Made by a program: the position numbers and the translations under genes. A stretch of DNA of 33,984 nt from a virus: IMG/VR virus record IMGVR_UViG_3300020468_000033, positions 1 to 33,984 of that record. One strand, 5' to 3'. Of this stretch, positions 11,901 to 33,984 are shown piece by piece. Under the pieces are notes generated by a model. The model saw only the letters and a list, made by a program, of their open reading frames with translations. It was not told the origin of the DNA and searched no databases. Position 1 is the stretch's first letter, and each line of letters starts with the position of its first letter.

Positions 11901-14900
11901 GATCATTTCTTTAGGAATAATGAGGAATTGGTGTATAAACCAGATTCAACAATTGTTGGTGTTGGAACATCATCTCTTGTATACAAAAATGTATCAGCAG
12001 GTATAAACACAGTCTTGACAGAAGTCGGTAATGTATTTTGTATTAAAACTGGAGAGAATACCTTCCAAATATCAACAACTAGAGCAGGAACTGCAGTTAC
12101 ATTCACAGGTTTAGGTGAGGGAAATGCTCATAAATTTACTATGTCTAAGAGAATTGAAAAATCAATTATCACTATTGATGGATTAATGCAGGATCCAATA
12201 TCAGTTAAAAATTTAACACAAACTCTTACTAATAATAATGGTAATATTGGTGCTTCAAGTAGTATATTTTCACTTAGTGGTATTTCATCTGTTTTAGTTG
12301 AGGATATAATCAAAATTGATGATGAGTTTATGAGAATAAACAATGTTGGGGTGGGAACTTCTTTCTCAGGTCCAATTACACCAGGCATCGGAACATTCCC
12401 ATTGGTTCAAGTTGACCGTGCATCATTAGGAAGCAAATCTTCATCTCATAATGATGCAACTAGTATTAAGTTTTTTACAGGGTCATTTAATATTGAAGAA
12501 AGCAATATTCATTTTACAAATGCTCCAATAGGAAATCCACAAGGATCAGATACTTTTAGTAATTTACCGTTTCCACGTTCAACTTTTGCAGGTAGAGTAT
12601 ACTTTAGAAATAATTATGATACAAATATAGTGTTTGATGATGTTTCAGATAAATTTACAGGAATTAATTCATCATTTAATTTAACAGTTGGAGGTGCAAA
12701 CACTATTGGAATTGGAACCACTGGAAATGGATTGATGTTGATTAATGGTATTTTCCAAAATCCAAGCACATTTAACAATCCATCTGGTAATTTTAATTTG
12801 ACTCAAGATGCGAATGTGGGTGTCACTACAATTAATTTTACTGGTTTAAATGTAGATAATGAACTTGTAATAAGTGATGAAGATGTAAATCAGAATCAAT
12901 TACCAAGAGGAGGTGTTATCGTATCATTAGGTTCAACTTCAGGATTGGGATTTGCACCTCTAGCAGGTGCTAAGATAAGACCTGTGGTGAGTTCTGGGGG
13001 AACAATAACTTCAATAGTTGGTGTTGCAACAACTGGATCATCATTAGGAATTATAACCGCATTTTATAATAATACTACAGGTTTACTAACCGTGACAACA
13101 CAAACTGATCCAGATTGGGTATTTGGTGAACAGAGTCAAGATGAAGTTCAACTGAATAGTTTACCTTTTTCTGGTGGATTATCAATTGGTGGCACCTTCT
13201 CAGTAGTTTCAGTGGCAGCAACTAATATATTTGGTGTTAATATTGGTATTAGAGAAACAACACATGATTATCAGGGTGGAGGAGAAGCGTTACCTTGGTA
13301 CGGAGATTTAACATTTGGATCTGGATATAATGGTATTAATGGAATAGGTGTGACTGTTGTTGATCTTGGTTATAAACATCGTTTTTTATATGCTACTTCA
13401 GGTGCAATCACTGTAGCTGGTGGGGGATCAGATCCACTGTTAACACCCACAAATGCAATTTATAATCCTGTATCAGGTATAGTTACTTTTACCGTAGCAG
13501 ATCATGGATTGACTAATTCTAACACCATTACAATAGAAGATGAGAGTTTATATTTCTCTTGTTCAAAAGATAATTTTAAAACTATACATCCGTATCCAAG
13601 ATCAACAGATCCAGCGTCTGTCAATTCACCAGCACTAAACGGTGGTTCATTACCAGTCACAAAAGTAGATGATGATAGTTTTAGTGTTAATGTTGGTACA
13701 AATGTAGGATCTGGTGCTACAATTACTGCTAGTGTTGGTGTGGGAGGAACCCTTGCATTTACTATTGTAGGTGGTGGTAAGAGTTATAAGGATGCAAAGA
13801 TTTTTGTATCTTCTCCTTCTTACTCTGGTTTAGGTATTACAGGTTTATCAAGACTTGGAATAGGTGCAACATACGATACAGGAAAAAATATTACGGTAGA
13901 TGTGAATGTTGGTCCAGTTGCTACTAACGTAGGTATAGGTTCTACATTATTTGAAGTTACAAACTTTAAAGTTAATGGTAATGGAAATGCATTTAATTTT
14001 GGAGATAAATTCACAGTTGTTGGTTTGGTAACTGATTCTAGTTACGCACAACCGGTTAAGAACTTTGAATTAGAAGTTACAAGAGTATATAACGATAGAT
14101 TTACTTTCTTCCAATTCGGGGAATTTGATTTTATTGACTCAATAAAGAGTTTACAAAATGGATCAAGAGTAAGATTTCCTATAAAATATGATCAAGAACA
14201 GTTAAGTATAGAAGAAGGAAATGCGTTTACTGGTGATTTATCAAATGTTTTAATAATTTTTAGGAATGGTGTTCTACAAGAACCTACTAAAAATTACAAT
14301 TTTGATGGTGGTACATCTCTAATATTTACAACACCACCAGCAAGTGATGATGATATACAAATTTATTTCTATAGAGGAACTGCTGGAACAGATTCATTAC
14401 AAGTAGATGCTGAGACTTCTCCTGTTGAAAAAGGTGATACTGTTCAAATAGTTAAAAATGTAGGTTTAATAACTAGCAAATCTCAAGATCCTAGAGTAAT
14501 TTTTGATATAAAAGACTCAGACGAAATTGAAACAAATATTTATTTTGGTCAAGGTATTAATGATGTAAACTTTAAACCTTTAGATTTAATAAAACAAAAA
14601 AGAGATTTAGCTGTAAATGATGAAAGAGTTCCAAAAACAAGACAATTGATAGAAACTTTAGTGTTTCCAACTGCAAAGGTGATTGGTGATATCTCAATTT
14701 CTAATAATGAAATATTTGTGGATGATGCATCTTTGTTTAATTATGAGAATGAATCAAGTCCAAATTTTGAGTTAAATTTGATTTCAGGAGTAAGTAATCC
14801 TGTGGCAGCAGCATTGACTGCTGTTGTTTCAGGAATTGGTACAATTCAATCCTTAAGTATAGTTAATGCTGGAGCTGGATATACCGAATCAACAATACAG

Positions 14901-15644
14901 TTGTCAATTGGCATACCTACCACAGGTATTACATCCTTTACAAAGAATGATGGAACAATTGGATTTGGAACAACTGCAACTGCAACTGCAACCATAACAA
15001 ATGGATCAGTTAGTTTAATTAATATCACAAATCCTGGTTCAGGTTACACAAATACTAATCCACCTAAAGTTCTTGCACCCAAATCATCAAGAGTTGATGA
15101 AATTGCAAGTGGCACTAATCTTGTTTTTGAAAATGCATCTGGTATTATTACAGGTATAGGAACTACAATATTTAACTCAGCATTAGCAATTAAATTTACA
15201 GGTATAAATACTGAGGGATTAGGACCAATCACAATTGGTGATCCATTATTCGTATATAACACTACTGTTGGAAATGGTGTTACATCAACTGATGGAACAA
15301 ATACAAATATAGTTGGTATTGGTACAACTTTTGTTGATAATGTTTATATTGTTGCAGGAATTACAACAATAGGGGTAGTTGGGGGAGGTAATACTATTAC
15401 TGGTATTATCACATGCACCATTGATACTAATAGTATTGGTATTCCTATAAACACGACTGGAGCATCTATAGGAAGATTTTCATTAGGAAAAATATCAAAT
15501 GTAGTAAGGTCTTCAAGTCCAATATCAATCGGAGTTACAGGTTTAACTGTTGATGTGGGATTATCAACTTTCCCAACTGTGATTAGAAGATCAGGTAACG
15601 ATACTCTCAGAAAAACTGGAGCATTAAAAACTAATCTTATATAA
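2970..15644 (+). CDS. 7: giant baseplate wedge protein, gp7-like
   Basis: An uninterrupted frame of 4224 residues lies in the gp7 slot between gp6 and gp8; T4 gp7 has 1032. The first 130 residues (VKIQDILSNQLPQFILDESP, then a coiled or helical stretch to about 65) look like the cyanophage gp7 N-terminus that nucleates the wedge. The rest is a chain of beta modules. Type A, near 74-132, 1526-1587 and 3099-3167, has 'KIDDEIITY...GFSGI' character. Type B, near 617-697, 841-929, 966-1050, 1811-1887, 2972-3060 and 3507-3527, has 'H-G-F-x-x-G-D' then 'N-x-F-x-L-Y', resembling FCCH-type repeats of phage tail proteins. Type C is the short G-x-G-Y module, near 941, 1086, 1131, 1170, 1416, 2039, 2117, 3959 and 4014. 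A YHYH domain lies near 1247-1355 and an NGVLQEP fibre-type domain near 3760-3804. The gp7 call rests on position and N-terminus; the long tail is probably an outward, host-facing extension. Confidence 0.8.
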   Translation: MIGTGINTRVKIQDILSNQLPQFILDESPLTVDFLKQYYISQENQGAPIDLVDNLDQYLNLDHLTPDVIQNSTTLTGITTIGAKTISVNSTKGFPNQYGLLKIDDEIITYTGITTNTFTGCERGFSGITSYHADLEKENLVFSTSIASKHSSSTSVENLSVLFLKEFYEKIKSTITPGLEKTNFATDLNVGNFLKNSRSLYQSKGTDESFRILFRALFNVAAKVINLENFLIKPSSAKYIRRDIAIAEVISGNPLLLVGQSLFKSDLNSDINTSISQVEPFTRNNKQYFKFELFVGFDNESEISNDFTIIPNTKSLEDVSIGSSVVSVDSTVGFGTSGTIVSGLTTFSYGSKTINQFLDCTDITNQILTTDNIRSNNIYYSYENGDLSKKVELRFTGVLNEYENINSLDVEESDELFVKNIGDKIINPTVKNYKQTFANSWIYNTSSTYEIKEFTGSSTITLSSECDKSSLKAGDKIELLKSGTNEVVYPLENDDIPYVNQIIDENTVSLENFEFTQTTGEKYKIRRKLNKAFSDINAAQILYGNNKITSDIQNLYIDEDENFAYVASNSLPSYNESLISEKYPFTELIEARINEETLRIGINTEGQLNDKNDLEKFTTITFEENVSFITGTEVFYQPSGEPLVGLETGSYFIKNNIDGNIKKIKLYNSRSNIPSDSFISFTPPVGISTHVFTLIDHKERLITPQKLLKKFPLKQDLSTGVNETTNPGQIGMLINGVEISNYKSNDKIYFGPLNTTSILSGGANFDVVDEPKFTVSTGIGTTALVQPVINGSVEKILVDPQEFDINEVISIGVTGGNGSNCVLEPIIVKRFRSVIFDSRTTLTGGGINTSINTITFLKEHSFVDGQEIVYDNQNSTSVSTASTTLFDGASYFASVLNNKTIRLYNTFEDQRASINPINIIGGGSGIQKFRLNSSKNNLSEVKVINPGENYRNKKLLVKPTGILTNYNAIQFTNHGFETGDVVQYSNAVGLGTTQPEFISGLSTTNDYFVKKLDGNKFQLYDTGVGGTITSNFERDDIVEISSTGTGFQQFSYPKVKAYINFTSVGLGTTSLQTVELTPVVKGSVTNLYLYENGTGYGSTILNYHKKPTISIQNGKDSSLKLNIINGQVDSVSIEYGGTEYFSSPDLIVNDTNGSGAELRPIITNQKLTDVVVINPGLGYSTDATVTVKPSGSDFIFDVDVRSLTLNKNYNNSTNASFLSKGDGKLKYSKCGYSTDTFNDGGDVASSIIGWAYDGNPIYGPFGREGVDGSGSIKTLSSSYVVDTNYIDRPSLLNFPSEFFVEDFKFNNSGDLDKYNGRFEINNDFPNGIYAYHALVDTSGSNNPKFPFFIGDKFKSKIIESNFTEFNQSYDLNSSGFKRNTFPYKVSDSFADNDFLVETNEITQQKSIVESVSSGTVDGIKVVNSGQNYKVNDNLIFDNSNTSGDGLTVRVSKLKGKEITNIDTTVNQIDNVVLIWNQDQIIIDTDIPHNFNDKDSVVLSGLSTDIISIDQFNIIGVSSFVSKNISTIHATVTAGLTTEINVSNIPENVSIGGSIRVGIETMKILNVFDNNVLRIKRSLTGTSHSATSPIIFEPNTFTFDKKLSFFDSKKNNKVFFNPTKSVGVGTTPGFNHQTSFVFLDSTVNRNIPTQKVLLSNHPFYNNQKINLTIPSGKAQISVSTTPTSAVFNLPTTNLYIVDSGKDLIGLKTGLGASFNDLFFRSISGSNDSDEYLFKSEFNQVTANIKKFNTKVTLSTSHTLAFNDEISLDVKPSLNVGIGTLSTVSVKRDLNTGHLLFDQIGLNSTGINTTTNTLTVQSHNLKTGDKIKYNSNLAPQGLVNKEYFVFKVDDNNFKFTESYLDSQSKPPVVVGLGSTGGSTQTVSKINPSINVVKNNNLVFDLSDSSLNDYEFRVYYDNDFNNQFISMGSSTSLNVVQVGSSLTVGFSTSLPSKLYYNLVKSGYISTVDTEVIDNNQINYVNSNYNGDYKVSSIGSTTFDIFLDKEPERLSYNTNNFNENLISKSNSISYKTTSTSSQDGIGDVELISGGTGYKKLPVLSGSSSTIASDATVDLLSESIGNIQKVRVLNDSFEYSTDKTLQPNSPVSPLIKTLNGNTIGIITVTSGGQNYSSTPKIIIVDPNTGLEINSGYFEVIMNQSTISNVLINDKPNGLPEERVKIITTNNTNGVSIQSIDFDNSVGTSFTCFISTPLNGFNIEPFTAGDEVFIEGVQKYIGVSTTGENLPFVGSGHNSSDYKYSFLKVSEYNKNTNPRKVIISVSGIQTTNSTGVSTYVGIAVTNQNNFATIINKSRYPIFDFNIIKSVFINGERLTVNNISRNLSVSRYNDNYIKVIGSFDLKVGDIILGQSSNSKAEVREINESKGIFKIDFASRKDIGWDDEVGKLSIDNQVTPNNDYFQNLSYSIKSEIPWNKFETPVNDILHTSGLKNFADTELSSSSSVGIGSTSTTSITINIIDDKRVDVIKNIDLSRDKDPVNNSSKFIEFKNIRLTDFIRCESNNVLNVDDISKDFSNIDGNPDTFLDILNLNQVKSFTNLLVRVNSFIGTELELQELLLLSSLKNTSSASPSELQNALIIKSKLNNVGTNNITAKNETLGDFSIATNDAGENVLRYTPKDKFDTDYDFKIIENIFTSTNELVQPVSGIGTLSLGVIRLMSSETLSRSGITTSIISLPSDQFKSYFVNTQIVNTNSGEIDFVESYLTHDNVNSYYSEYYTDNNNTNSRVGIFSGDLSNGNLSLSFYNDTEDVVLLIKSKIVGIGTTGLGNGEHRFLSNDQIGGQERSIVYQGITTAGVGTTSIIDLDKNLFNAFKSVVEVSIGSSKALHQVYSINDGSQIFTQPAQFLSVGSTSLFDDNIGLGTFGGVYDGSKIKINFYPDNLTGICTVKTFNQCFYNSNDTKNVANDLEYGSIRESIDLKFFNAINGVRINRTDFELNSNNIPIFSKTFNPNSVSLAATTGIFTINDHFFRNNEELVYKPDSTIVGVGTSSLVYKNVSAGINTVLTEVGNVFCIKTGENTFQISTTRAGTAVTFTGLGEGNAHKFTMSKRIEKSIITIDGLMQDPISVKNLTQTLTNNNGNIGASSSIFSLSGISSVLVEDIIKIDDEFMRINNVGVGTSFSGPITPGIGTFPLVQVDRASLGSKSSSHNDATSIKFFTGSFNIEESNIHFTNAPIGNPQGSDTFSNLPFPRSTFAGRVYFRNNYDTNIVFDDVSDKFTGINSSFNLTVGGANTIGIGTTGNGLMLINGIFQNPSTFNNPSGNFNLTQDANVGVTTINFTGLNVDNELVISDEDVNQNQLPRGGVIVSLGSTSGLGFAPLAGAKIRPVVSSGGTITSIVGVATTGSSLGIITAFYNNTTGLLTVTTQTDPDWVFGEQSQDEVQLNSLPFSGGLSIGGTFSVVSVAATNIFGVNIGIRETTHDYQGGGEALPWYGDLTFGSGYNGINGIGVTVVDLGYKHRFLYATSGAITVAGGGSDPLLTPTNAIYNPVSGIVTFTVADHGLTNSNTITIEDESLYFSCSKDNFKTIHPYPRSTDPASVNSPALNGGSLPVTKVDDDSFSVNVGTNVGSGATITASVGVGGTLAFTIVGGGKSYKDAKIFVSSPSYSGLGITGLSRLGIGATYDTGKNITVDVNVGPVATNVGIGSTLFEVTNFKVNGNGNAFNFGDKFTVVGLVTDSSYAQPVKNFELEVTRVYNDRFTFFQFGEFDFIDSIKSLQNGSRVRFPIKYDQEQLSIEEGNAFTGDLSNVLIIFRNGVLQEPTKNYNFDGGTSLIFTTPPASDDDIQIYFYRGTAGTDSLQVDAETSPVEKGDTVQIVKNVGLITSKSQDPRVIFDIKDSDEIETNIYFGQGINDVNFKPLDLIKQKRDLAVNDERVPKTRQLIETLVFPTAKVIGDISISNNEIFVDDASLFNYENESSPNFELNLISGVSNPVAAALTAVVSGIGTIQSLSIVNAGAGYTESTIQLSIGIPTTGITSFTKNDGTIGFGTTATATATITNGSVSLINITNPGSGYTNTNPPKVLAPKSSRVDEIASGTNLVFENASGIITGIGTTIFNSALAIKFTGINTEGLGPITIGDPLFVYNTTVGNGVTSTDGTNTNIVGIGTTFVDNVYIVAGITTIGVVGGGNTITGIITCTIDTNSIGIPINTTGASIGRFSLGKISNVVRSSSPISIGVTGLTVDVGLSTFPTVIRRSGNDTLRKTGALKTNLI
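5790..6530 (+). repeat. cluster of G-x-G-Y beta modules in gp7-like gene
   Basis: At least four related short modules occur here: KVINPGENY (about residue 942), LYENGTGYGS (about 1089), SIEYGGTEYFSSPDLIV (about 1132) and VVINPGLGYSTDATVTV (about 1171). Each has the pattern hydrophobic strand, (N/E)-(P/A/G)-G-x-x-Y, six to eight residues, then a V/I-rich strand. They alternate with a type B 'HGF-x-x-GD' module at 5867-6120. Confidence 0.65.
6708..7035 (+). other. YHYH-like domain inside the gp7-like protein
   Basis: Residues about 1247-1355 of the gp7-like protein contain GWAYDGNPIYGPFG, then a YNGRFEINNDFPNGIYAYH segment, then PKFPFFIGDKF. This order (GWAxDGxPIYGP, then NGRF..PNGTYxYH, then a final FPY.IG) is the signature of the YHYH domain family found in secreted bacterial proteins. 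The match is by eye from remembered motifs. The function of the family is not well defined. Here it interrupts the beta-repeat chain once only. Confidence 0.72.
14247..14380 (+). other. NGVLQ-type fibre domain in gp7-like protein
   Basis: Residues about 3760-3804 read IIFRNGVLQEPTKNYNF, then SLIFTTPPASDDDIQIYFYRG. The scheme 'V/I-x-x-NG-x-x-Q-P-x-x-Y-x-x..I-x-F-T-x-x-P-x-x-x-D-x-I-x-I' is common in tail-fibre and tail-spike proteins of many phages. A weaker relative, LMLINGIFQNPSTFNN, is encoded near 12735. Confidence 0.6.
14845..15075 (+). repeat. pair of G-x-G-Y modules near the gp7-like C-terminus
   Basis: SIVNAGAGYTESTIQLSI (about residue 3962) and NITNPGSGYTNTNPPKVL (about 4018) are two close copies roughly 55 residues apart. 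They are very similar to the copies in gp14, for example LLTNPGAGYTVTPTITIV. Confidence 0.7.
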
Positions 15645-17300: not shown

Positions 17301-20300
17301 ATGAAACAAAAAACAAATTTAAATACAAGTCCATATTATGATGATTTTGATGAATCAAAAAATTTTTACAAAGTTCTTTTTAAACCTGGTTTCCCAGTTC
17401 AAGCAAGAGAGTTAACTGGTTCTCAATCAATATCACAAGATCAATTATCTAAACTAAGCACTTATGTTTTTAAGAATGGGGCAAAAGTAATACCAGGTGA
17501 TCCATCATTTCAAGATAATGTTAGAGCTATAAAATTAAATTCTACAAACTTTGGTGTTGATATATCATTATATACGAATAATTTAGTTGGTAAAATAGTA
17601 TCAGGTCAATCTTCAGGAATACGTGCAAATGTAAAGTTAGCAACAACAATAACCGACTCAGAAAATAATAGTCAAATAATTTTACATGTTGACCAAATAT
17701 CCTCTGGAAACAATTTAAATAGTTTTGATACATTTCAAAATGGAGAGTCATTAGTATGTGATGAAAATATTCTATATGGTAATACCACAATAAATGCAGG
17801 AACACCTGTAGCGTCTTTAATATCAAATAATTCCACTGGTTTTGGTTCTTTAGTTCATATTGAAAAGGGAGTTTACTATATTAGAGGTTATTTTGTTGGT
17901 GTTAATCAACAGTCAATAATATTAGATGCTTTTGAAAATAAACCATCTTATCGTGTTGGTTTGAAAGTAGATGAAATAATTGTAAATGCAAAGGAAGATA
18001 GTTCACTATATGATAATGCAACTGGTTTTACAAATTTTGCAGCACCAGGTGCTGACAGACTACAAATAAATTTAACTCTTACAAAAAAATTATTAACTGA
18101 TAAAAATGATACAGATTTTGTATTATTACTTGAAATTGAAGACGGTAAAGTAAAAAAAGTTGGTGAAGGTGTTAATGATAATTTAAATTTATTAGGTGAT
18201 GCTCTTGCTAAAAGAACTTTTGAAGAGTCTGGAAATTATTCAGTTAGACCATTTATACCATCTATACACAATTCACTGAATGATAAGTTAGGAAATAATG
18301 GATTATATTTTAGTAATCAATTAACAGATCAAGATAACACACCTTCTGACGATTTGATGTGTGTAAAAATTTCACCTGGTTTATCGTATGTTAGAGGAAA
18401 TAGAGTTTTAAAGAGCACAACAAATATTATTGATGTTGATAAACCTAGAGATGTGGGAATACAGACAAGTAGTGCTGTTGATTTTGAAATGGGTAATATA
18501 TTAAGAGTTAATAATGTTCAAGGAGTTCCTAAACAAGGAACAGTTGTCAGTTTATTTGATAATTTCAATTCTACTGGTAATTTAATAGGTAGTGCAAGAG
18601 TCTACAGTTTTAATTTAGAAAATTCTGCTTATTCAGGAGCAACTACAAATTGGGATTTAAGATTATTTGATATACAAACATTTTCAACTATAACATTAAA
18701 TACAACTATTCTTAGCGCTGAAGTGCCTCAGGGATCTTTTGTTAAAGGAAAAAATTCAAATGCATCCGGATTTGTTAGACCTCATCACTCCAGCACTGTT
18801 GGAATTGTAACTTTGAGTGAATCTTCAGGCACATTTATGATCGGAGAAGAATTGACTGTTAATGGTATTGATTTAGAAAGAAGTGTGGGTATTCTAACAT
18901 CAAGTAATATTCAACAAATAAAGTCTGTTTCACAACCAACTTCCAGCAATTTTCCAAGTATATCAGGCAGTGGATTCAAAGCAGACTCTTTTCTCGAAAG
19001 ATTTAGAATTCCAGGTGGTATTGGTAATGTATCTATAACTGCAAGAGGTGGTACAGGCGGAGGTATTTCAACTGTAACTGCTGGAGGGGAACCTTTAACC
19101 GGATTAAGAAAAGGATCAATAGTTAGATATTTAAGTCCAGGTATAAGCACAGAAAGATTTAATAAAGTCCAATCAATTGCAAGTGATGGTTTGTCTATGG
19201 TAATAGAACCAATAACAACTGTATTTGGTGTTTTTGAAGGATCTGTTCCAGATGCAAATATTCAGGTATCAATGTTCGCTGCAGCACCAAATATAAGAGG
19301 TACAGGAAATTTATTTAAATCTTTAAATAATTCGAATGTTGAGTCTATAGATTTATCAAATTCACAATTAACAGTAACTAAACAAATTACTGGTAAAAAT
19401 ATAAGTTCCGGAACTCTTACAGTGAATTCCTCTAGTGATACTGATTTAGTAAACTCAAGTTTTGTATCTTTTGATCAAGAACGTTATTCAGTTCATAACG
19501 ATAATGGGACAATACAAACTCTTAATCGTGATAATTTTAGTACCAATGGAACTACTTTTACATTAACTGGATTAGATGATGACACTGTTGTCTTAAACTC
19601 AACTTTATCAAAAAATGAAATAAAGAGTAAAATAAAAACATATAATAAAAGTCAATTGTATTATGTTAGATTATCAAACGATAAAGCATCTGGTGCTAGT
19701 GCTGGTAATTCAATTCAAGATGGATTGACATTTGATAGAAGATATGGTTTAAGAGTTCAAGATGAAGAAATATCACTTAATTATCCTGATGCGGTTAAAG
19801 TTTTATCTATATTAGAATCTTTAGATGAAAATGATCCAATTCTAGACACATTAAGTTTTAGTGACACTGTAAATGTTGATAATAATGCAATTATTGGTGA
19901 GGATATTATCAGTAATGATAAGTCTATTGTTGCTAGAGTAATTAGTAAACCGACATCAAATCAATTATCTGTTGTATACTTAACCTCAAATAAGTTTACA
20001 TCAACAGACAATGTTACTTTTTCAGAGTCAAATATTCAGACAAAAATTAACAGTATAGTAAATGTAGGGAAATATAAAGATCTTACAAACTCATATGCGT
20101 TAGATAAAGGACAAAGAAACGAATATTATGATTATTCAAGAATTATTAGAAATAAAAATGTTTCATCACCATCAAGAAGATTATTAGTAATTTTCGATTA
20201 TTATTCTGCTGCAAATAATGATGAGGGTGATGTATTTACAGTTCTAAGTTATGATAATGACAGATTTAATTTTGATATTCCTACTATAGGATCATCTAAC

Positions 20301-23300
20301 GTCAGAGCTACTGATACGATTGATTTCAGACCAAGAGTTCCAATATATGATGTAAGCACAGGTACAATATCACCATTTACTTTTGGTTCAAGAGATTTTT
20401 CAACAATAAAACAATTTATTACACCTAATGAAAGTTTTACTTTAAATTATAATTTCTATTTACCAAGAATTGATAATTTATATCTTAGTAAAAATGGCAA
20501 TTTTGTATATGAAAAAGGAGTATCGTCAGTAAATCCAAAACCTCCAGTCAGAAATGATGAATTGATGAAGTTAGCAACAATTACTTTACCACCGTATCTC
20601 TATAGTCCTGAAAATGCATCATTATTAATAACTGAGAATAAAAGATTTACAATGAAAGATATTGGAACTATTGAGGATAGAGTTTCAAATTTAGAGGAAG
20701 TTACTTCTTTATCATTGTTAGAAAATAATGTACAAACACTGCAAATATTAGACTCAGAGGGTAGAAATAGATTTAAGAGTGGATTTTTTGTAGATCCATT
20801 TAGAAATTATAATTTAATGAATTCAACTTTATCAACTGTTGAAGTTGATTTGTTTTCAAATGTAATATTCCCAATTAGATCTAGAAATACGTTAGATTTA
20901 GTTCCAAAGTTAGAAAATCCATTATCTCAAGCAGATTTTGATTCAAGGCAGAATAATCAATTATTTGATTCAAATGTAAGAAGAACAGGTGATTTAATAA
21001 CTTTAGATTATGAAGAGGTAGAATGGTTTGGACAGGAATATGCCACCAGTTCTTTAAATATAAATCCATTTTTAATACCATCATATACTGGACAAATAAG
21101 ATTAACTCCTGCTTCTGATTTATGGACAAGAACAATTGAAAATGATCTTGGTGTAATAAGGCAAGATGGAGTAAACACAACACAAAATTTAAATTTAAAT
21201 ACTATAATAAATGGTGAATTGGGTGGAGATATTACACAGGTAACCACTAGAACTACTCAACAACTTGTAACTCCTGGTCAGGGGTCACAGTTAGGAGTTG
21301 GTAATGGTGGAGTCATATCAAGGACTTTAGAAGATGCTGGAACTAGCACAATAAGGGGTCAATTATCTTTAAATGGTAATGCTTCTGATAGCGTAACTGT
21401 TAGAAGTGTGGATACTGTTATTGATAACAGACTTACTTCATCGATAGCACAATTTATGAGATCGAGAAATGTGCAATTTGAGACTTCTAGTTTTCCTTCA
21501 TATACACAATTTTTTACATTCTTAGATAAAGAGATTGTAGATTTCATTCCAAAATTAGTTGAAGTTTCTCCAACAAAAAATGGATCTGGTTCCGGAACTA
21601 GTAATTCTTCATTCATAATTGGTGAAACTGTCGAAGTTTATGATAATACAAGTGAACCACCTGTGATGCAATTTAGAGTCTGTAAACCAGATCATAAAAC
21701 TGGTGCTTTTAATAATCCAAGTGAATCATATCAATTTAATCCTTACACATATCAAAATAATAATGCCGACAGAGTGCCTCAAAATTATTCTCTTACAACA
21801 CCTATTGTAAATATAGATACACTTTCATTATCTAATGAGTCACAATCAAATTATTTCGGATATTTAGAAACAGGTTACAAATTAGTTGGAACAGAAAGTA
21901 ATGCTGAAGCTTATGTAAAAAATAAAAGATTAATAAGTGATAATAGAGGTGATTTAATAGGAACATTTTTTGTTAAAGATCCAAATACTATTCCACCTCC
22001 TGATAGAAGATTTAATACAGGAGAAAAAACTTTCTTATTAACCACAAGTTCAACAAATGCAACATTTATACCTGGTGTTGATCCAAACATATTTGCTGCT
22101 CAAATTCCATTCACATCTGAAGGAACAACGTTAGAATTTGAAAAAGAAACAATTCAGACAGTTAATTCATCCACTTTCAATATTAATGCTGATTTTCAGG
22201 CAAATATTGAGACTAATATCTCACTTACTCAACAGATTGAAAATGTAGTAGAGGCAGAATATTTTGATCCTTTGGCACAAACATTTGTTATAGGTTCTAG
22301 AAATCCACAAACTGAAAATGCTCTTAACACTTCTAATGATCAGAATGGTGCTTATATTACATCAGTTGAAGTATTCTTTAGAACAATTGATCCAAATACA
22401 GATGTAACTTTACAAATGAGGACTACAGATGAAGGAACTAGACCCTCTAGATCAATTTTAGCATCTAAAACATTACCATCTACAGAATTTGTAAATGGTG
22501 TTTCTAATCAATTAATTCAAACATCTGAGGATGCATCAGTTGGAACTAAATTTACATTTGATGAACCTCTTTATTTAAGTCCAAATGAAACTTACGCAAT
22601 TGTTTTACTTGCCCCAGATTCAGACAAATATACTGTTTTCACTGGAGTTTCTGGACAGACTGCTTTAAATCCTCAATCCATACCTGGTGCAGCAGGGGGA
22701 GAATCAATACAGTATTCACAGCAATATACACTAGGAGCAATTTTCAAATCACAAAATGGTGCACTATGGTCAGAGGACAATGAGCAAGATTTGACATTTA
22801 AATTATATAAAGCTCAATTTGTTACTAGTGGTTCATTACTTTTACATAATTCTGAATTAGGTGAAGGTAATAATTATATTCCAAGATTGACTCCAAACTC
22901 GATAGAAACATTTCCTAAAACTGGATCGATTGGAATCACGACTATTGGAGAACCAGCAGTATCAACTTTAGTCGGAATATTAACTGCAGGTAGAAAAATT
23001 TGTGGTATTAATTCTACAAGTACTGCTGTAATAACGGGTATTGGTGGAAGTGTTCGTGATCCAAGACCAAATGTTGTAGGTAGTGGTCTTACCGTTACAG
23101 ATGGTGGTTTAAATTACACAGCATCTCCTAATGATGGTACATCACCAATTGAAACTTTTGCAATTACAGGTGGAGGCACTGGATTAAAATTAAGCATTGC
23201 TTCAGTTGGGGTTGGAGGTTCAATTATTTCATTCCGTGAGTCATTTAAAGAAGGATCTGGATATAAAGTCGGAGATGTTGTTGGAATAGTTACAAGTTCT

Positions 23301-24899
23301 GTAGGGACATCTGGTGGACAGGGAAGAGGATCAAGACTTACAATTACAAACACTCAAGGTATAGACAAAATATTCCTAACAAATGTAAAAGGTGATAATA
23401 ATTCATTCGCAGGTAATGTAGGAACTGCTCTGAGTTTCTTCAATGATAGTAATAATATTGTAAGTTTAGGTGGAACCTTTATTGTATCAAATAACTTAAA
23501 TACTACAGGAGTTAATGCCGGAAACTTATTTAAAGTTAATAATTTAGATCATGGTATGTATTCCAATACAAACAAATTAGATTTGAAAAATATTTCTAGT
23601 GATATAGTTCCAACAGAATTAAGTGCTACATTATTAAATAATGAATCAAGTAGTATAAGTGTTGCGAGCACATCAGTGTTTACTACTTTTGAGGGAGCTC
23701 CTGTTAGTGGAATTAATACAGGTTACGTTAAAATAGATAATGAAATTATAGGATACGATGGTGTTGGAGGTGGAGTATTAAATATTGCTTCTGGTGCTAA
23801 TGGAAGGGGAGTTGATAATACAAATACATTAAGTCATGATGTGAATACTTTAGTTAGTAAATATGAATTAAATGGTGTTTCCATAAGAAGATTATCTAGA
23901 AATAATTTGAATGTAAACAGTAATCAAATAGAATTAGATAGTCATTTTGTTGAGTTTGACAGATCGACAAATGGTAAAAATAGATCATCAGATTCAATGA
24001 ACTTCCCACAATTATCATTCAACTCAAAACAATCAACTGGTGGAAATTTTGTAAGATCTAGTGAAAATATACCATTTAATTCTATAAAACCTAATATCTT
24101 AGTTTCTACTCCCGTTGGTGTTGATGGTGCAATAACCGATATTAATGCATCAATAAGAACAATATCTGGGACAAGTGTAGGAGGAAATGAACCATCATTT
24201 GTTGACTTAGGTTATGAACCTATTTCTCTTAATAATTTAAATCCATTAAATAGTGTTCGCATGGTGGCATCTAAAGTTAATGAAAATCAATATTTAAATA
24301 GTTTACCAGAAAATAAATCATTTACATTACTTATGAATTTAAGTTCAAACAATCCGAATTTATCACCAGCGATCTCAATGAGAACTTTACCGAACGTTGA
24401 ATTATACTCAAGTAGAATCAATAGACCAATAGATCTTGATTCTTATGACGTAAATGGTGAAGTTAATTCAATATTGAATGATCCTCATGCTGCTGCTTAT
24501 GTTTCAAATAGTATAAGATTATCAAAACCAGCTACATCACTTAAAGTTATTTTAACTGCAAATAGACCTGCCTCTGCTGATTTTAGAGTTTTATATAGTT
24601 TGAATAGAATTAATTCGGAAGAAACTGCACAATCCTTTGAACTATTTCCTGGTTATAAAAATTTAACAAATGTTGATCCTGACGATGGATTTGGAGATTT
24701 GGTTGTAGATCCATCAAAAAATGATGGAAGAGCAGATTCGTTTGTGCCATCAAACACATCTAATCAGTTCTCAGAATATCAATTTACTGCTGATGATTTA
24801 GATGAATTTAATGGTTATACCATAAAGATTGTTATGTCAAGTTCAGATCAATCAGCAGTTCCAAGAATTAAAGAATTGAGGACAATTGCAGTAAGATGA
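17301..24899 (+). CDS. giant DUF4815-containing virion structural protein
   Basis: This is a 2532-residue protein. The N-terminus (SPYYDDFDESKNFYKVLF, then FKPGFPVQARELTGSQSIS and KNGAKVIPGDP) is the DUF4815 signature found in cyanophage and other marine phage structural proteins. Family-type segments continue to about residue 1180, among them SSPSRRLLVIFDYYSA and DTIDFRPRVP, and a short heptad-like stretch near EDRVSNLEEVTSLSLLENNV. The second half is beta-rich. It contains FDPLAQTFVI near 1655, G-x-G-Y-type modules near 1928 and 1982, and a type A module near 2117-2187 (GYVKIDNEIIGYDG) like those in gp7. It occupies the place where T4 has gp9-gp12, which are absent, so a peripheral baseplate or fibre-attachment role is a reasonable inference. 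Its last four bases overlap the next gene (ATGA). Confidence 0.85.
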   Translation: MKQKTNLNTSPYYDDFDESKNFYKVLFKPGFPVQARELTGSQSISQDQLSKLSTYVFKNGAKVIPGDPSFQDNVRAIKLNSTNFGVDISLYTNNLVGKIVSGQSSGIRANVKLATTITDSENNSQIILHVDQISSGNNLNSFDTFQNGESLVCDENILYGNTTINAGTPVASLISNNSTGFGSLVHIEKGVYYIRGYFVGVNQQSIILDAFENKPSYRVGLKVDEIIVNAKEDSSLYDNATGFTNFAAPGADRLQINLTLTKKLLTDKNDTDFVLLLEIEDGKVKKVGEGVNDNLNLLGDALAKRTFEESGNYSVRPFIPSIHNSLNDKLGNNGLYFSNQLTDQDNTPSDDLMCVKISPGLSYVRGNRVLKSTTNIIDVDKPRDVGIQTSSAVDFEMGNILRVNNVQGVPKQGTVVSLFDNFNSTGNLIGSARVYSFNLENSAYSGATTNWDLRLFDIQTFSTITLNTTILSAEVPQGSFVKGKNSNASGFVRPHHSSTVGIVTLSESSGTFMIGEELTVNGIDLERSVGILTSSNIQQIKSVSQPTSSNFPSISGSGFKADSFLERFRIPGGIGNVSITARGGTGGGISTVTAGGEPLTGLRKGSIVRYLSPGISTERFNKVQSIASDGLSMVIEPITTVFGVFEGSVPDANIQVSMFAAAPNIRGTGNLFKSLNNSNVESIDLSNSQLTVTKQITGKNISSGTLTVNSSSDTDLVNSSFVSFDQERYSVHNDNGTIQTLNRDNFSTNGTTFTLTGLDDDTVVLNSTLSKNEIKSKIKTYNKSQLYYVRLSNDKASGASAGNSIQDGLTFDRRYGLRVQDEEISLNYPDAVKVLSILESLDENDPILDTLSFSDTVNVDNNAIIGEDIISNDKSIVARVISKPTSNQLSVVYLTSNKFTSTDNVTFSESNIQTKINSIVNVGKYKDLTNSYALDKGQRNEYYDYSRIIRNKNVSSPSRRLLVIFDYYSAANNDEGDVFTVLSYDNDRFNFDIPTIGSSNVRATDTIDFRPRVPIYDVSTGTISPFTFGSRDFSTIKQFITPNESFTLNYNFYLPRIDNLYLSKNGNFVYEKGVSSVNPKPPVRNDELMKLATITLPPYLYSPENASLLITENKRFTMKDIGTIEDRVSNLEEVTSLSLLENNVQTLQILDSEGRNRFKSGFFVDPFRNYNLMNSTLSTVEVDLFSNVIFPIRSRNTLDLVPKLENPLSQADFDSRQNNQLFDSNVRRTGDLITLDYEEVEWFGQEYATSSLNINPFLIPSYTGQIRLTPASDLWTRTIENDLGVIRQDGVNTTQNLNLNTIINGELGGDITQVTTRTTQQLVTPGQGSQLGVGNGGVISRTLEDAGTSTIRGQLSLNGNASDSVTVRSVDTVIDNRLTSSIAQFMRSRNVQFETSSFPSYTQFFTFLDKEIVDFIPKLVEVSPTKNGSGSGTSNSSFIIGETVEVYDNTSEPPVMQFRVCKPDHKTGAFNNPSESYQFNPYTYQNNNADRVPQNYSLTTPIVNIDTLSLSNESQSNYFGYLETGYKLVGTESNAEAYVKNKRLISDNRGDLIGTFFVKDPNTIPPPDRRFNTGEKTFLLTTSSTNATFIPGVDPNIFAAQIPFTSEGTTLEFEKETIQTVNSSTFNINADFQANIETNISLTQQIENVVEAEYFDPLAQTFVIGSRNPQTENALNTSNDQNGAYITSVEVFFRTIDPNTDVTLQMRTTDEGTRPSRSILASKTLPSTEFVNGVSNQLIQTSEDASVGTKFTFDEPLYLSPNETYAIVLLAPDSDKYTVFTGVSGQTALNPQSIPGAAGGESIQYSQQYTLGAIFKSQNGALWSEDNEQDLTFKLYKAQFVTSGSLLLHNSELGEGNNYIPRLTPNSIETFPKTGSIGITTIGEPAVSTLVGILTAGRKICGINSTSTAVITGIGGSVRDPRPNVVGSGLTVTDGGLNYTASPNDGTSPIETFAITGGGTGLKLSIASVGVGGSIISFRESFKEGSGYKVGDVVGIVTSSVGTSGGQGRGSRLTITNTQGIDKIFLTNVKGDNNSFAGNVGTALSFFNDSNNIVSLGGTFIVSNNLNTTGVNAGNLFKVNNLDHGMYSNTNKLDLKNISSDIVPTELSATLLNNESSSISVASTSVFTTFEGAPVSGINTGYVKIDNEIIGYDGVGGGVLNIASGANGRGVDNTNTLSHDVNTLVSKYELNGVSIRRLSRNNLNVNSNQIELDSHFVEFDRSTNGKNRSSDSMNFPQLSFNSKQSTGGNFVRSSENIPFNSIKPNILVSTPVGVDGAITDINASIRTISGTSVGGNEPSFVDLGYEPISLNNLNPLNSVRMVASKVNENQYLNSLPENKSFTLLMNLSSNNPNLSPAISMRTLPNVELYSSRINRPIDLDSYDVNGEVNSILNDPHAAAYVSNSIRLSKPATSLKVILTANRPASADFRVLYSLNRINSEETAQSFELFPGYKNLTNVDPDDGFGDLVVDPSKNDGRADSFVPSNTSNQFSEYQFTADDLDEFNGYTIKIVMSSSDQSAVPRIKELRTIAVR
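23082..23330 (+). repeat. G-x-G-Y-type modules in the DUF4815 protein
   Basis: LTVTDGGLNYTASPND and FKEGSGYKVGDVVGIV flank a GGGTGLKLSIASVGVGG strand pair. The layout follows the same module scheme as in gp7, gp8 and gp14, with an N-Y or G-Y end to the turn. Confidence 0.55.
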
Positions 24900-25129: not shown

Positions 25130-25468
25130 ATGTCAGCAGTATATGTATCAAATCTAGTTATAAACGCTGGATCAACTTTCAGTCAAACATTTGAACTAGG
25201 TAATACTCAAGATAACTCACCATTTAATTTAACTGGATACTCAATAGCAGCTCAATTGAGGAAACATGCGAGTAGTAGTGGTGTAACAACCTTTACTTCT
25301 TCAATAAGTGACGCACCTAGTGGAAAAATTTTAGTTGGATTAGCATCAACTGAAACAATAAACATAAAACCTGGTAGGTATGTGTATGATATAGTTGTTA
25401 CTTCAGGTGCAATAAAAACTAGAGTTGTTGAAGGATCTGCACTAGTACGGGAGGGAGTAACAAGGTAA
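25130..25468 (+). CDS. small beta-sandwich virion protein (BppU-N/Ig-like)
   Basis: This 112-residue protein is not one I can name. Its pattern of strands around FNLTGYSIAAQLRKHAS, then GKILVGLASTETINIKPGRYVYDIVV, then a C-terminal VEGSALVREGVTR resembles a small domain found across many phages. That domain (baseplate upper protein N-terminal or Ig-like) reads roughly 'F-x-L-T-G-x-x-x-x-A-x-x-R ... P-G-x-Y-x-Y-D-(I/V)', and often acts as an adaptor or fibre-binding module. It is the first gene after the promoter at 25104 and overlaps the next gene by one base (TAATG). A structural adaptor role near the neck or fibres is an inference. Confidence 0.75.
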   Translation: MSAVYVSNLVINAGSTFSQTFELGNTQDNSPFNLTGYSIAAQLRKHASSSGVTTFTSSISDAPSGKILVGLASTETINIKPGRYVYDIVVTSGAIKTRVVEGSALVREGVTR

Positions 25469-25863
25469 TGTCAGAAATTAATGCAAACATAGGACCCACA
25501 CCTGCAATAAAGGTTTTAACAACACAACCATCTGTCAATCCAGAACAATCGGTTAATGCTACAAATGTAGTTGGTGGTATAGCTTCTGTTACACAATTAT
25601 CTGTAAGTGGTGTATCTACACTGGGGATTATAACAGTTTCAAGTGGAATTATTTCCTCTACAAGTGGAATTGTTACATACTTAGGAGACGGAAGTCAATT
25701 AACTGGAGTTGTTGCCACAGATCTAGGAGATATAGATGAATTGAATGTAAGTGGTATAACTACCTTAAATAGAATTAAAGTTGAATCTGGTATTATAACA
25801 GCAACAACTGGTGTTGTTACTTTTACTGGTGATATTACATCTCTGGATGGAGGATCTTTTTGA
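25468..25863 (+). CDS. short fibre-like repeat protein
   Basis: This is a 131-residue protein rich in Ser, Thr, Gly and Val with no charged core. After a 35-residue N-terminus it consists of related stretches: QLSVSGVSTLGIITVSSGII, then TSGIVTYLGDGSQLTGV, then ELNVSGITTLNRIKVESGII and TTGVVTFTGDITSLDGG. The same motif family ('LxVSGxTT', 'GIVxATxFxGDGSxLTG') fills the large fibre gene beginning at 29379, so this looks like a minimal fibre or fibre-derived protein. The gene starts at the TAATG overlap with its predecessor and ends at a TGATG overlap with gp13. Its function is unknown; a tail-fibre or whisker-like component is the best guess. Confidence 0.75.
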   Translation: MSEINANIGPTPAIKVLTTQPSVNPEQSVNATNVVGGIASVTQLSVSGVSTLGIITVSSGIISSTSGIVTYLGDGSQLTGVVATDLGDIDELNVSGITTLNRIKVESGIITATTGVVTFTGDITSLDGGSF

Positions 25864-29378: not shown

Positions 29379-32300
29379 ATGGGGATCAAAAAACCTTCAG
29401 ATTACTTTAAAAAGGAAAGTAAAGATAATGAGAATTTAATTGGTAAACCAAACTTAAGTTCTTATTCGGAAGCTTTTAATTCTTTTAAGGAAAATTTATC
29501 AAAATTTGATAAAATTACCGAGACAATTAAAGTTGTAGATGAAATAAAAACTGAATTAGAAGATTTTCTTAAAAAAGAAGACCTTGATAATGCGATGATG
29601 TCGTATGTCTTTTTGTTGGAAGAAAATATAAACACATTACAGAATAATGTAAAGAGTATTAATACAGAAACATTAACTGAAATAAAATCAAAGGTCACAG
29701 ATGTTACTGACGTAGTAAATAATTTTGCAGAAGTAGAATTACCAAAATATAAAAAAAATATAATCGATTCTGAATTAAGGTCAGAAGAAAAATTTGATAA
29801 ATTTAAAGAAGAATTTTCAAAATTACTAAATGAAGTTTCAACAAATATTGATACTAAACAGTTTGAGATAGAATCTAAAACAGAAAAAAATTTAAATGAG
29901 GTTGTAAAAAACATAGATTCTTTATATGTTGATATTCCAAAATACGAAAAAAACATTATTGATGTTGAGGTTAAAACAGATCAAAAATTTGATGAATTTA
30001 AAGAAGAGTTTAATAATTTTATTAATGAAATATCAAACAATTCAGAAAAGAATTTAAATGAAGCCGTAAGTAATTTAGAAAATCACATAAAAAATATTGA
30101 TGATGATAGTAAAAATATATCAAATACACTTAAAGTAAAAGTAAATGAAATAAAAAAATTAAAGAAAAATGTTATTGAAGAACTAAAAGTAAGTAAAACT
30201 TTACAAAAAGATTTCAATAAAAAAATTACAAATCTTGAGATTGAAGTAATTCGTGGTGAAAATAACATAAAGGAGCAAAATGATAATATTTTATCAATTG
30301 AAAAATCTTTTAAAGATACGATTGATAAATTAAATGTTAAAGATTTAGAAAAAGAAAATTTTGTACTTTCAACAAAAATTAAACATCTTGAGGAAGTTTA
30401 TGAAAATTTAAAAGAAGAGAGTAAAATAAATGAAACTTTAATTGAAGAAACACTACCATCTACAAAAACATCAGATCCACTCACACCTTTAGATCAAAAC
30501 TATGTTACATTAGATCAACTTCAACAACATTATAGACTATTTTTAAATCGCATTCAGACTCAACTATCCACATTAGGTGGTGGTGGAGAGACAAGATTGC
30601 AATATCTTGATGATATTGTTGGTATTGCCACTGATTTAAGTGAATATAACGGTAAATTTTTAAAAGTAGACACATCACAACCAGCAGGAAAGAATTTTGT
30701 ATTTGAAACTGTCTCTGGAGGCGGTGGAGGAGGATCCACAGGTGCTGGAGGAACGTGGGCTACATTTGACAGTAATACTGGAATTACAACGACAAAGAAA
30801 GTCAAGATTGCTAATGATCTTGAGGTCACTGGTGTCACCACATTTGCTAGTACTGTCAACTTGGGTGATAATGATAGATTAAATTTCAAAGATACAAATA
30901 CTGCAATATATGGTGATGTATCAAACTTAAACATTGAAGCTGCTGCTAACAGAAATGTTAGTATTAAAGTTAATGCTGCTGGTGGAACATCGGGAGATAT
31001 TATATTAAAAACTGGAAGCACTGAATCAGTAAAAGTAAATGGTGATGGTGGTGTTATTGTAACTGGTGTTACCACAATAGGCAATGTTGTGGTTGGTGGT
31101 GCTACTACAGACTTAATTGTCAATGGTGATGCCAGAGTAACTGGTATATTAACTATTGGAACTGGATCAATTACTCTAAATCCAACTGAAAAGAAAATAA
31201 GTGGTGTAGATGAGATTGAAATTGGATCGGGAACGACTGCTATCACGATTAAAAAATCAGAGACAGGAGAAATAAAGTTTACTGACGAAAATGGTGATGA
31301 GAAATCAGTTGGTATTGGAACAACAGTAAGTATTAATACATCTGGTATTATAACTGCAACAACTTTAGCAGGAACACTCCAGACTGCTGCACAACCAAAC
31401 GTAACTTCACTAGGAACATTAAGTTCGTTAAACGTAACTGGAAACGTATCAGTCGGTGGAACATTAACATACGAAGATGTAACCAATATAGACTCGGTAG
31501 GATTAATAACAGCAAGAAGTGGTATTGAATTTGGTGTTGCTGGTGCTGGTGGAACAATTAGAGCAAATGGAGATACTACTTTAGCTGGTGTTGTTACTGC
31601 ATCATCATTTGTTGGTGGTGGTTCAGGATTAACTGGATTTACAGCATCTCAAATACCGAATTTAGCATCAAGTAAAATAACTTCTGGAACTTTTGACGCA
31701 GCAAGAATACCAACACTAAACCAAAATACTTCAGGAACCTCTGGAGGTTTAACTGGATCTCCAAATATAAACGTAAGTAGTATAGTCGGAACAGCATTAT
31801 CAATAAGTGGTATTTCAAGTGTAGGCACTGCTATTACGATGTATGGGTCTTCTGGTATTGTTAGTGCTACTAGTTTTTATGGAGATGGTTCCGCACTGAC
31901 TGGACTTGCTGGATTCTCACCAGACGGACAAGAGAACTTATATGCAGGAACAGGTGCTGGTGCATCCTCTGATGCTGATACTTGCTTCAACATTGCTCTA
32001 GGTTGTAATGCTGGTAAAACAAACTGTGCAGGTGATTACAACGTATTATTGGGATGTACTGCAGGATGTTTACTTACATCTGGTGGTTGTAATGTATTAA
32101 TAGGTAAAGAAACAGGATCATATCTCACAACTGGTAATAGAAATGTATTCATAGGTCGTAATGCTGGTAAGTATTCAAGCACAGGAACTAATAATGTTAT
32201 TTTAGGAAATGCTGCTACAAGTGGTCCTGGTTTAACTGGTAGTAATAACTTTATTACTGGTTTTGCAGCGGGAGAGGCCATGACAAGTGGTCGTTACAAC

Positions 32301-33984
32301 GTTCTTACTGGAAGTTATGCTGGTAATGACATAACTGAAGGTGAGCAGAATATTTTACTGGGTCTAAGTGCTGGTGAAAAACTCACTACAACAGATAAAA
32401 ACATCTTTCTTGGTTCTTATGCAGGAAAATGTAATACTGGTACTGCAAACATTTCATTAGGTTGTGATTCCCTTAAAGCTTCTGGTGCTAGTTTTGGAAC
32501 CATTGCGATTGGAGGAAAGGCAGGATTAAGTAATGCTGCTGGTTCTTATAATATTTTCTTCGGATTTTGTTCAGGAAATACAACTACGTCTGGCGGTAAA
32601 AACATCGCAATTGGTCGTAATGTTGAACTACCATCTGCGACTGGTAATTGTCAATTAGCAATTGGTGATGATACAAATCGTTGGATTACTGGTGATAGTT
32701 CCTTTAATGTAACTCTTTCTGGTATTGCAACTGTTTATGCTGCCACTGGTATTGTTAGTGCTACTAAGTTCTGTGGTGATGGTTCGGCACTGACTGGTAT
32801 TAGTGCTGGTGGATTTACACCAGACGATCAATATAATTTATATGCTGGAACATGCGCTGGTAATGCATCTGATGCTGATACTTGTTTTAATATTGCACTT
32901 GGTTGTAGAGCAGCTCAAGCATTAAATGCAGGTGATGATAATATTGTGTTGGGTCGTAGTTCGGCTCTTTCTCTGACGACTGGTAATTACAACCTTTACT
33001 TTGGTTTAGCCGCAGGATGCAACAGTGCCACTCAAAGTAATAACATGGGTATTGGAAAATACACAGGAGTTAATTACTGCACATCGGCACAATGTAATAT
33101 TTCAATTGGTGTGTATGCTGCTAAAAACAGAGCAAGTGGATGTCATAATATAGCATTAGGTGCTTCAGCTCTTTGTGGTGCGGAAGGTCAAATAACAAGT
33201 AATACTGGTAAAGCGAATATTGCGATTGGTTATAACGCAGCATTCTGTATGAGCTCTGGTGCATGTAATACTTTCTTAGGAGAATCTGGAAAATATGTAA
33301 CTACTGGTAGTCATAACATTGGAATAGGTAAGTTAGCAGGTGGATCTGCTGTTACTGCAACTGGAAGTTGTAACATTTCATTTGGATATTATGCTGGATG
33401 TTGCCTCACTTCGGGTTTTCAGAACATATTAATTGGTCAAAATGTAGGAAAAACTCTAACGAGTGGTTATGATAATATTGCACTTGGTTGTAATGCGATG
33501 AGTGATGGTGCAGTAACTGGTGCTTGTAACATTGCAATTGGTATAAGAGCATTAAAAAAAGTTGTTGCTGGTGGACAAAATATTGCAATCGGAGAAGGTG
33601 CAGGATGTAGTACAACTTATGCTAATAATAATATATTTATTGGCCAAAAGGCAGGTAACAATAACGTAGGAGGAGCAAGAAATATTGCCATAGGTCTTGA
33701 TGTTGAATTAAATGAAGCTAATGATCAACTTGCTATAGGTTGTTGTGGAAGTCGTTGGATTGAGGGTGACAGTTCCTTTAATACAACTTTAGCTGGTATT
33801 GCAACTGTTTATAGTGCCACTGGTATCGTAAGTGCAACTAAGTTCTGTGGAGATGGTTCGGCACTCACTGGTATTAGTGCTGGTGGATTCTCTCCTGATG
33901 ATGATCAAAACTTATTCGCATCTAATACTTGTTCTGGATGTAATCTTGATGGGTCTTCTGGTTGTTATAACGTATTCTTTGGTG
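29379..33984 (+). CDS. large coiled-coil and repeat-containing tail-fibre-like protein (3' end outside window)
   Basis: I read this frame by hand from the ATG at 29379 to the last base without a stop: at least 1535 residues. The order is: residues 1-25, leader MGIKKPSDYFKKE; about 25-358, a long Lys/Glu/Asn coiled coil with a 65-residue internal repeat; about 370-450, a segment with YVTLDQLQQHYRLFLNRIQ, GGGGETRLQYLDDIVGI and a Gly-rich hinge (SGGGGGGSTG) that I associate with cyanophage fibre proteins. Next, about 465-830, come 'LEVTGVTTF', 'AGTLQTAAQPNVTSLGTL' and 'ASSFVGGGSGLTG' beta modules. From about 834 on there are cassettes of about 20-residue N-x-x-x-G units resembling trimeric adhesin head repeats, many with Cys. 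A trimeric host-recognition fibre is the likely role. The gene starts two bases after gp16, in place of the expected gp17. Confidence 0.85.
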   Translation, partial: MGIKKPSDYFKKESKDNENLIGKPNLSSYSEAFNSFKENLSKFDKITETIKVVDEIKTELEDFLKKEDLDNAMMSYVFLLEENINTLQNNVKSINTETLTEIKSKVTDVTDVVNNFAEVELPKYKKNIIDSELRSEEKFDKFKEEFSKLLNEVSTNIDTKQFEIESKTEKNLNEVVKNIDSLYVDIPKYEKNIIDVEVKTDQKFDEFKEEFNNFINEISNNSEKNLNEAVSNLENHIKNIDDDSKNISNTLKVKVNEIKKLKKNVIEELKVSKTLQKDFNKKITNLEIEVIRGENNIKEQNDNILSIEKSFKDTIDKLNVKDLEKENFVLSTKIKHLEEVYENLKEESKINETLIEETLPSTKTSDPLTPLDQNYVTLDQLQQHYRLFLNRIQTQLSTLGGGGETRLQYLDDIVGIATDLSEYNGKFLKVDTSQPAGKNFVFETVSGGGGGGSTGAGGTWATFDSNTGITTTKKVKIANDLEVTGVTTFASTVNLGDNDRLNFKDTNTAIYGDVSNLNIEAAANRNVSIKVNAAGGTSGDIILKTGSTESVKVNGDGGVIVTGVTTIGNVVVGGATTDLIVNGDARVTGILTIGTGSITLNPTEKKISGVDEIEIGSGTTAITIKKSETGEIKFTDENGDEKSVGIGTTVSINTSGIITATTLAGTLQTAAQPNVTSLGTLSSLNVTGNVSVGGTLTYEDVTNIDSVGLITARSGIEFGVAGAGGTIRANGDTTLAGVVTASSFVGGGSGLTGFTASQIPNLASSKITSGTFDAARIPTLNQNTSGTSGGLTGSPNINVSSIVGTALSISGISSVGTAITMYGSSGIVSATSFYGDGSALTGLAGFSPDGQENLYAGTGAGASSDADTCFNIALGCNAGKTNCAGDYNVLLGCTAGCLLTSGGCNVLIGKETGSYLTTGNRNVFIGRNAGKYSSTGTNNVILGNAATSGPGLTGSNNFITGFAAGEAMTSGRYNVLTGSYAGNDITEGEQNILLGLSAGEKLTTTDKNIFLGSYAGKCNTGTANISLGCDSLKASGASFGTIAIGGKAGLSNAAGSYNIFFGFCSGNTTTSGGKNIAIGRNVELPSATGNCQLAIGDDTNRWITGDSSFNVTLSGIATVYAATGIVSATKFCGDGSALTGISAGGFTPDDQYNLYAGTCAGNASDADTCFNIALGCRAAQALNAGDDNIVLGRSSALSLTTGNYNLYFGLAAGCNSATQSNNMGIGKYTGVNYCTSAQCNISIGVYAAKNRASGCHNIALGASALCGAEGQITSNTGKANIAIGYNAAFCMSSGACNTFLGESGKYVTTGSHNIGIGKLAGGSAVTATGSCNISFGYYAGCCLTSGFQNILIGQNVGKTLTSGYDNIALGCNAMSDGAVTGACNIAIGIRALKKVVAGGQNIAIGEGAGCSTTYANNNIFIGQKAGNNNVGGARNIAIGLDVELNEANDQLAIGCCGSRWIEGDSSFNTTLAGIATVYSATGIVSATKFCGDGSALTGISAGGFSPDDDQNLFASNTCSGCNLDGSSGCYNVFFG
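29742..30131 (+). repeat. 65-residue repeat in the fibre coiled coil
   Basis: PKYKKNIIDSELRSEEKFDK (from 29742) and PKYEKNIIDVEVKTDQKFDE (from 29937) start 195 bases apart. Both continue as FKEEF(S/N)(K/N)...NE(V/I)S.N and later EKNLNE(V/A)V. This is a tandem duplication of a helical segment of 65 residues; the second copy decays toward the end of the interval. Confidence 0.8.
32650..32824 (+). repeat. cassette junction, copy 1
   Basis: This block runs from CQLAIG through NRWITGDSSFN, GIATVYAATGIVSATKFCG and GDGSALTGISAGGF. It is repeated with high nucleotide identity, offset by exactly 1074 bases, at 33724-33898. A shorter, more diverged copy of its second half lies near 31855-31921. Confidence 0.85.
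33724..33898 (+). repeat. cassette junction, copy 2
   Basis: This is the second copy of the junction block. The stretch from 33795 (GIATVYSATGIVSATKFCG) to 33893 is nearly identical to 32721-32819, with mostly silent or single-residue changes. The start (DQLAIGCCGSRWIEGDSSFN) is more diverged. Confidence 0.85.

Follow-up and report, generated by a model that had tools for sequence, protein, structure and literature searches.

The window, meaning the whole stretch of 33,984 bases analysed here, is an entire virus contig from a T4-like marine phage, and it ends within a long fibre gene (Table 1). The fibre product matches PHROG profiles 6002 (virion structural), 30742 (tail fiber) and 4636 (tail spike) with E = 7e-44, 5e-38 and 4e-26, respectively, which places it among the repeat fibres of marine T4-like phages that these profiles describe. 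Among the nine window proteins compared with PHROG, those encoded further upstream include matches to baseplate wedge, neck, tail sheath stabiliser and small terminase profiles, and the closest phage DNA in GenBank is that of AG-345 single-cell phages and Synechococcus phage S-SKS1 (74-75% identity); together, these upstream genes and nearest DNA identify the setting as a T4-like myovirus genome. The fibre gene comes after gp16, the small terminase gene, both in the window and in one relative (L009), and in another (L039) it precedes gp17, the large terminase gene, with a few genes between. That second relative also carries three consecutive similar genes of about 250-270 residues after its fibre gene and upstream of the large terminase gene (L039:2782-5104; phrog_24210, tail fiber). 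Elsewhere in the window, two very large baseplate-region genes (2970-15644 and 17301-24899) encode 4,224 and 2,532 residues, the former matching a baseplate wedge family of 4,179 positions, and a separate 131-residue protein distant from the fibre gene (25468-25863) contains GDGSQLTG, a form of the GDGSxLTG linker motif. The G+C content of the cassette region (31881-33984) is 39%, compared with 31% for the whole window.

Table 1. Features of the fibre gene. Positions are those of the window; related loci are designated by L and a number.
Feature	Position	Strand	Description and basis
Fibre gene	29379..33983	+	At least 1,535 residues; last gene, open at contig end; ORF and translation
N-terminal region	29379..30500	+	Lys/Glu-rich, Cys-free; common to L006, L017, L018, L019, L012 and L021
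Linker modules	30560..31880	+	Gly/Thr/Val-rich, ahead of the cassettes; translation; mosaic matches to L006, L017 and L019
Partial junction block before cassette A	31852..31903	+	52-nt repeat family D3; 83-88% identity among three GDGSALTG copies
Cassette A	31881..32774	+	Leader 31881-31934, 15 units 31935-32705, linker 32706-32774; unit segmentation
Junction block, copy 1	32645..32841	+	End cap, linker, GDGSALTGIS-Gly and next start cap; 197-nt direct repeat, 80% identity
Cassette B	32775..33848	+	Leader 32775-32834, 18 units 32835-33779, linker 33780-33848; unit segmentation
Junction block, copy 2	33719..33915	+	197-nt direct repeat, 80% identity to copy 1
Cassette C, start only	33849..33984	+	Cut by contig end at 33984; different cap (NLFASNTCSGCNLDGSSGCYNVFFG)

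The N-terminal region is presumed to form an anchor and shaft, and its composition suggests a coiled-coil-like structure. With residues 1-607 as the query, the six relatives listed for this region in Table 1 are 52-79% identical at the amino acid level. Pfam and NCBIfam searches with the fibre protein and its cassettes returned no usable family; Pfam matches to Csm6 CARF and IF2 did not reach the cut-off and resemble what coiled-coil or linker composition would produce. A sequence search for a solved structure found none, and neither did a search for relatives of cassette B in bacterial genomes.

Beyond the linker modules, the gene consists of cassettes built from a 17-residue unit, N-x-x-x-G-x-x-A-G-x-x-x-T-T-G-x-x, for which we derived a profile from 1,159 units. 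Across 20 repeat proteins, successive units are spaced by 17 residues in 707 cases, by 18 in 145, by 16 in 88 and by 20 in 27, and 17 is the modal length in both cassettes A and B. This periodicity and the junction copies recur at about 20 loci and do not reflect chance. The original prediction had described GDGSALTG starts at 31881, 32775 and 33849, with spacings of 894 and 1,074 nt whose 180-nt difference was taken as three whole units of 20 residues. The starts and spacings are all as described, and the accompanying counts of 13 and 16 units are correct if the first and last cap units are left aside (15 and 18 with caps). Segmentation, however, rules out a 20-residue unit, and the 180 bases are not whole units: the extra 60 residues of cassette B correspond to three 17-residue units (51 residues) plus nine residues of small indels, two in the leader and seven in loops. 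By segment, cassettes A and B have leaders of 18 and 20 residues, unit blocks of 257 and 315, and tails of 23 in both. Among 210 pairs of cassettes from relatives, the length difference is a multiple of 20 in 6.7% and of 17 in 9.5%, so the exact divisibility by 20 is a coincidence and means little. The conserved junction block around the cassettes, also part of the original prediction, is borne out by the long direct repeat in Table 1. The longest exact repeats internal to the fibre gene are only 20-23 nt, and three of the four longest lie within junctions.

The further proposal, that the fibre grew by whole units through unequal recombination, stands in part: register is kept and recombination at the junctions is well supported, but growth from A to B is not, as the interiors of the two cassettes are not collinear. 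What A and B share is confined to their ends and the junction block, with 14, 10, 9 and 12 of 17 residues alike in the first two and last two units. A unit-by-unit alignment of the interiors against shuffles detected no collinearity (p = 0.19), and in both A and B neighbouring units resemble each other no more than units farther apart do (nucleotide identities of 0.50 and 0.45, compared with 0.46-0.48). Among relatives, adjacent units are marginally more alike than distant ones (0.512 versus 0.496). Tandem Repeats Finder reported no array in the cassette region and, like adjacent-unit identity, gave no signal of recent tandem unit duplication in the window gene. Interiors that are not collinear and adjacent units at background identity indicate that neither cassette recently grew from the other. 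That unequal crossing over, unit by unit, lengthened B by three units from an A-like ancestor would account for the difference of three in the counts and for the kept register, but it is unlikely given these results, the absence of a detectable array and an extra 60 residues that are not three exact units. Duplication of single or multiple units can occur, as seen in one relative (L014:2-3511), a divergent repeat protein unlike the other relatives, in which many units are 80-92% alike at lags of 2 to 37.

Comparison with relatives pointed to a different kind of event. As the original prediction implied, unit number varies widely, from about 8 to 31 per cassette among relatives; first cassettes behind the same anchor, counted by hand, hold 15 units in the window, 18 in L006, 18 in L012 and 20 in L017, and their interiors differ. 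In an all-against-all DNA comparison of the IMG/VR relatives, cassettes that are 88-97% identical occupy different positions and orders in different phages. For example, a 319-residue cassette of L005 is missing from L013 at a junction reading GDGSxLTGISGGGG, and the flanking sequences of these loci agree at about 97% before it and about 94% after it; judging from the two contigs, the difference is a clean insertion or deletion of a whole cassette at a junction. Likewise, the last units of cassette B and the junction that follows are 93.6% identical to L008, which then enters a cassette 94% identical to one in L046, and the window continues with another cap type, NLFASNTCSGCNLDGSSGCYNVFFG, resembling that of a later cassette of L012. 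Overall, 29 of 39 ends of shared segments lie at or near junctions against 16.7 expected, an enrichment that is partly built in, as the 39 ends depend on one another and alignments tend to stop at conserved junctions anyway. The other 10 breakpoints fall inside cassettes, several of them at a conserved unit start, which indicates that blocks of units are exchanged too. The event that these alignments appear to record is thus the exchange or loss of whole cassettes and unit blocks, not one cassette growing, and recombination at the junction block is a well-supported reading of them.

Conservation in the alignment is highest at the caps and junctions, and unit interiors are saturated, a pattern that would also arise if the junctions were structural caps under strong purifying selection and the cassettes had diverged in place after ancient duplications, without recent exchange. 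We consider this very unlikely because near-identical cassettes recur in differing contexts across phages, and the presence of a whole cassette in one locus and its absence from another, between flanks that are nearly the same, contradicts it unless the contigs are misassembled. Most relatives are metagenome contigs, several ending within repeats, and some chimeras could have arisen when repeats were assembled from short reads, but it is highly improbable that the mosaics as a whole are assembly chimeras of repetitive genes: identity within the shared blocks is mostly 88-97% and not 100%, L005 and L013, and L008 and L046, come from different datasets (judged from contig names), the longest exact repeat within the window gene is 23 nt, and the single-cell phage AG-345-L05 has the same architecture, with 107 units.

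Cassette B was modelled as a monomer with AlphaFold2 from an input that included 15 related cassettes. It is predicted to form a regular roll of repeated strands (mean pLDDT 72.7, pTM 0.70), and this model matches many predicted viral fibre proteins, with E down to 1e-13, including the P-SSM2 proximal tail fibre. Matches in the PDB were weak, none with E below 0.07, with the trimeric autotransporter proteins UspA1, CbpF and BoaA at 0.09-1.8, and the YadA head family in Pfam matched neither the fibre protein nor any of the 16 window and relative cassettes. Columns 6, 7, 10, 11, 16 and 17 of the unit are variable. Comparison of near-identical cassettes gave nonsynonymous-to-synonymous ratios of codon differences of 3.54 in the variable columns, 1.39 in the scaffold and 0.87 outside the units, values in keeping with constraint on the scaffold and with relaxed or diversifying change at the surface positions. 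Mutagenesis by a diversity-generating retroelement was considered and rejected: the variable columns hold many Lys, Gln, Glu and Arg (AGA) codons rather than NNY only, and PHROG matches for the nine proteins scanned from this incomplete phage genome include no reverse transcriptase.

The cassettes are also rich in cysteine, which accounts for 4.7% of their residues (33 of 701) compared with 0.25% in the other main ORFs of the window (24 of 9,734; odds ratio 20, p = 1.6e-24); fibre residues 1-834 have none. Cys-rich repeats, with the cysteines mostly at the six variable unit positions, were seen in the window at 31881-33983 and also in L002-L019, L035, L040 and L046. In relatives, cysteine makes up 5.15% of unit residues and 0.87% elsewhere, reaching about 160 per chain; it supplies about 10-21% of each variable column and is almost absent from most scaffold columns. 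No consistent pairing was found within or between units: disulfide pairing at fixed unit positions was rejected after about 170 pairs were scored at lags of 0-3, where the few z values near 3 are expected from the number of tests. In near-identical cassettes, 95% of variable-column cysteines are kept compared with 82% of other residues, with p, under single counting, between 2e-6 and 0.07 depending on how seven changes are split. One possibility, which we put forward tentatively, is that cysteine is selectively concentrated at the variable surface positions, so that the fibre would be dense in thiols, may be cross-linked, redox-switched or metal-binding, and would be reshuffled as whole cassettes between phages. 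The nearest precedent for a Cys-rich phage tail is Agrobacterium phage Milano, whose disulfide-linked tail has a mapped disulfide network and 2.1% Cys in its structural proteins (PMC10811340). The disulfides of Milano are paired and position-specific, whereas in the window fibre Cys amounts to about 5%, is spread across repeat positions and shows no sign of pairing. Our literature search found no report on Cys-rich cyanophage fibres; for a phage, it is unusual to find cysteine enriched 20-fold and only at the variable positions of a repeat, and the literature searched offers no explanation.

Several known systems resemble this fibre in part. The hypothetical protein QCW22875.1 of the Synechococcus phage isolate S-B05 (Kyanoviridae) has the 17-residue units, end cap, linker and GDGSxLTGIS junction, and it occupies the same locus as the window fibre, between the small and large terminase genes. 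It differs in having one cassette of about 15 units and 0.19% Cys, whereas the window fibre has three or more Cys-rich cassettes; Cys richness is therefore a property of a subgroup. Marine phages also encode adhesin-like repeat proteins with YadA domains, such as S-TIM4 ORF108 (PMC6224464, PMC3909814, PMC9146016), and the predicted roll weakly resembles the YadA-like heads of the trimeric autotransporters named above. These systems differ in that the window fibre is without a Pfam YadA match and its PDB fold matches are weak, and the likeness to S-TIM4 ORF108 is one of description. In cyanomyophage S-TIM4, laboratory evolution left a 2,235-residue structural protein with a YadA domain carrying a new 120-bp cluster of changes, which the authors ascribe to recombination between regions of similar sequence (PMC6224464), and marine phage fibres are hypervariable in metaviromes (PMC3909814). 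In T-even phages, according to Tetart et al. 1998 as cited in PMC3797505, adhesin modules are swapped by recombination between conserved motifs. On that summary, the distal tail fibre and gp38 adhesin would work alike, with variable host-contact modules bounded by conserved motifs at which crossover takes place; this is a likeness of working rather than of demonstrated homology, and the window gene chains many whole cassettes. Adhesin-module swapping is thus already known, and what is new here is that the chained cassettes share their junctions and have variable positions rich in Cys.

Taken together, the window gene probably encodes a modular host-contact fibre of a Kyanoviridae-like, T4-like cyanophage, diversified by junction-guided cassette swapping. 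In one long fibre, a presumed N-terminal anchor is followed by several cassettes, each of which opens with a start cap, runs through roughly 8-31 copies of the 17-residue unit, a predicted beta-roll turn, and closes with an end cap and a linker whose last residues are GDGSxLTGIS-Gly. In the mechanism we propose, scaffold residues would hold the roll, and the six variable positions of each turn would probably be exposed and make contact with the host, presumably from a trimeric assembly. The conserved junctions would offer short homology at which recombination, probably homologous, swaps, inserts or deletes whole cassettes in frame, and the conserved N-x-x-x-G unit starts may offer secondary short homology for the exchange of unit blocks. 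Such exchange would change the length and surface of the fibre while leaving its fold intact, and altered reach or receptor specificity, as the original prediction had suggested, is a plausible consequence. The gene thus provides a concrete example of how the host-contact fibre of an ocean cyanophage may be rearranged, with a fixed anchor, fixed junctions and exchangeable repeat cassettes, a design that would let long-read viromes be used to test how host range relates to fibre content.
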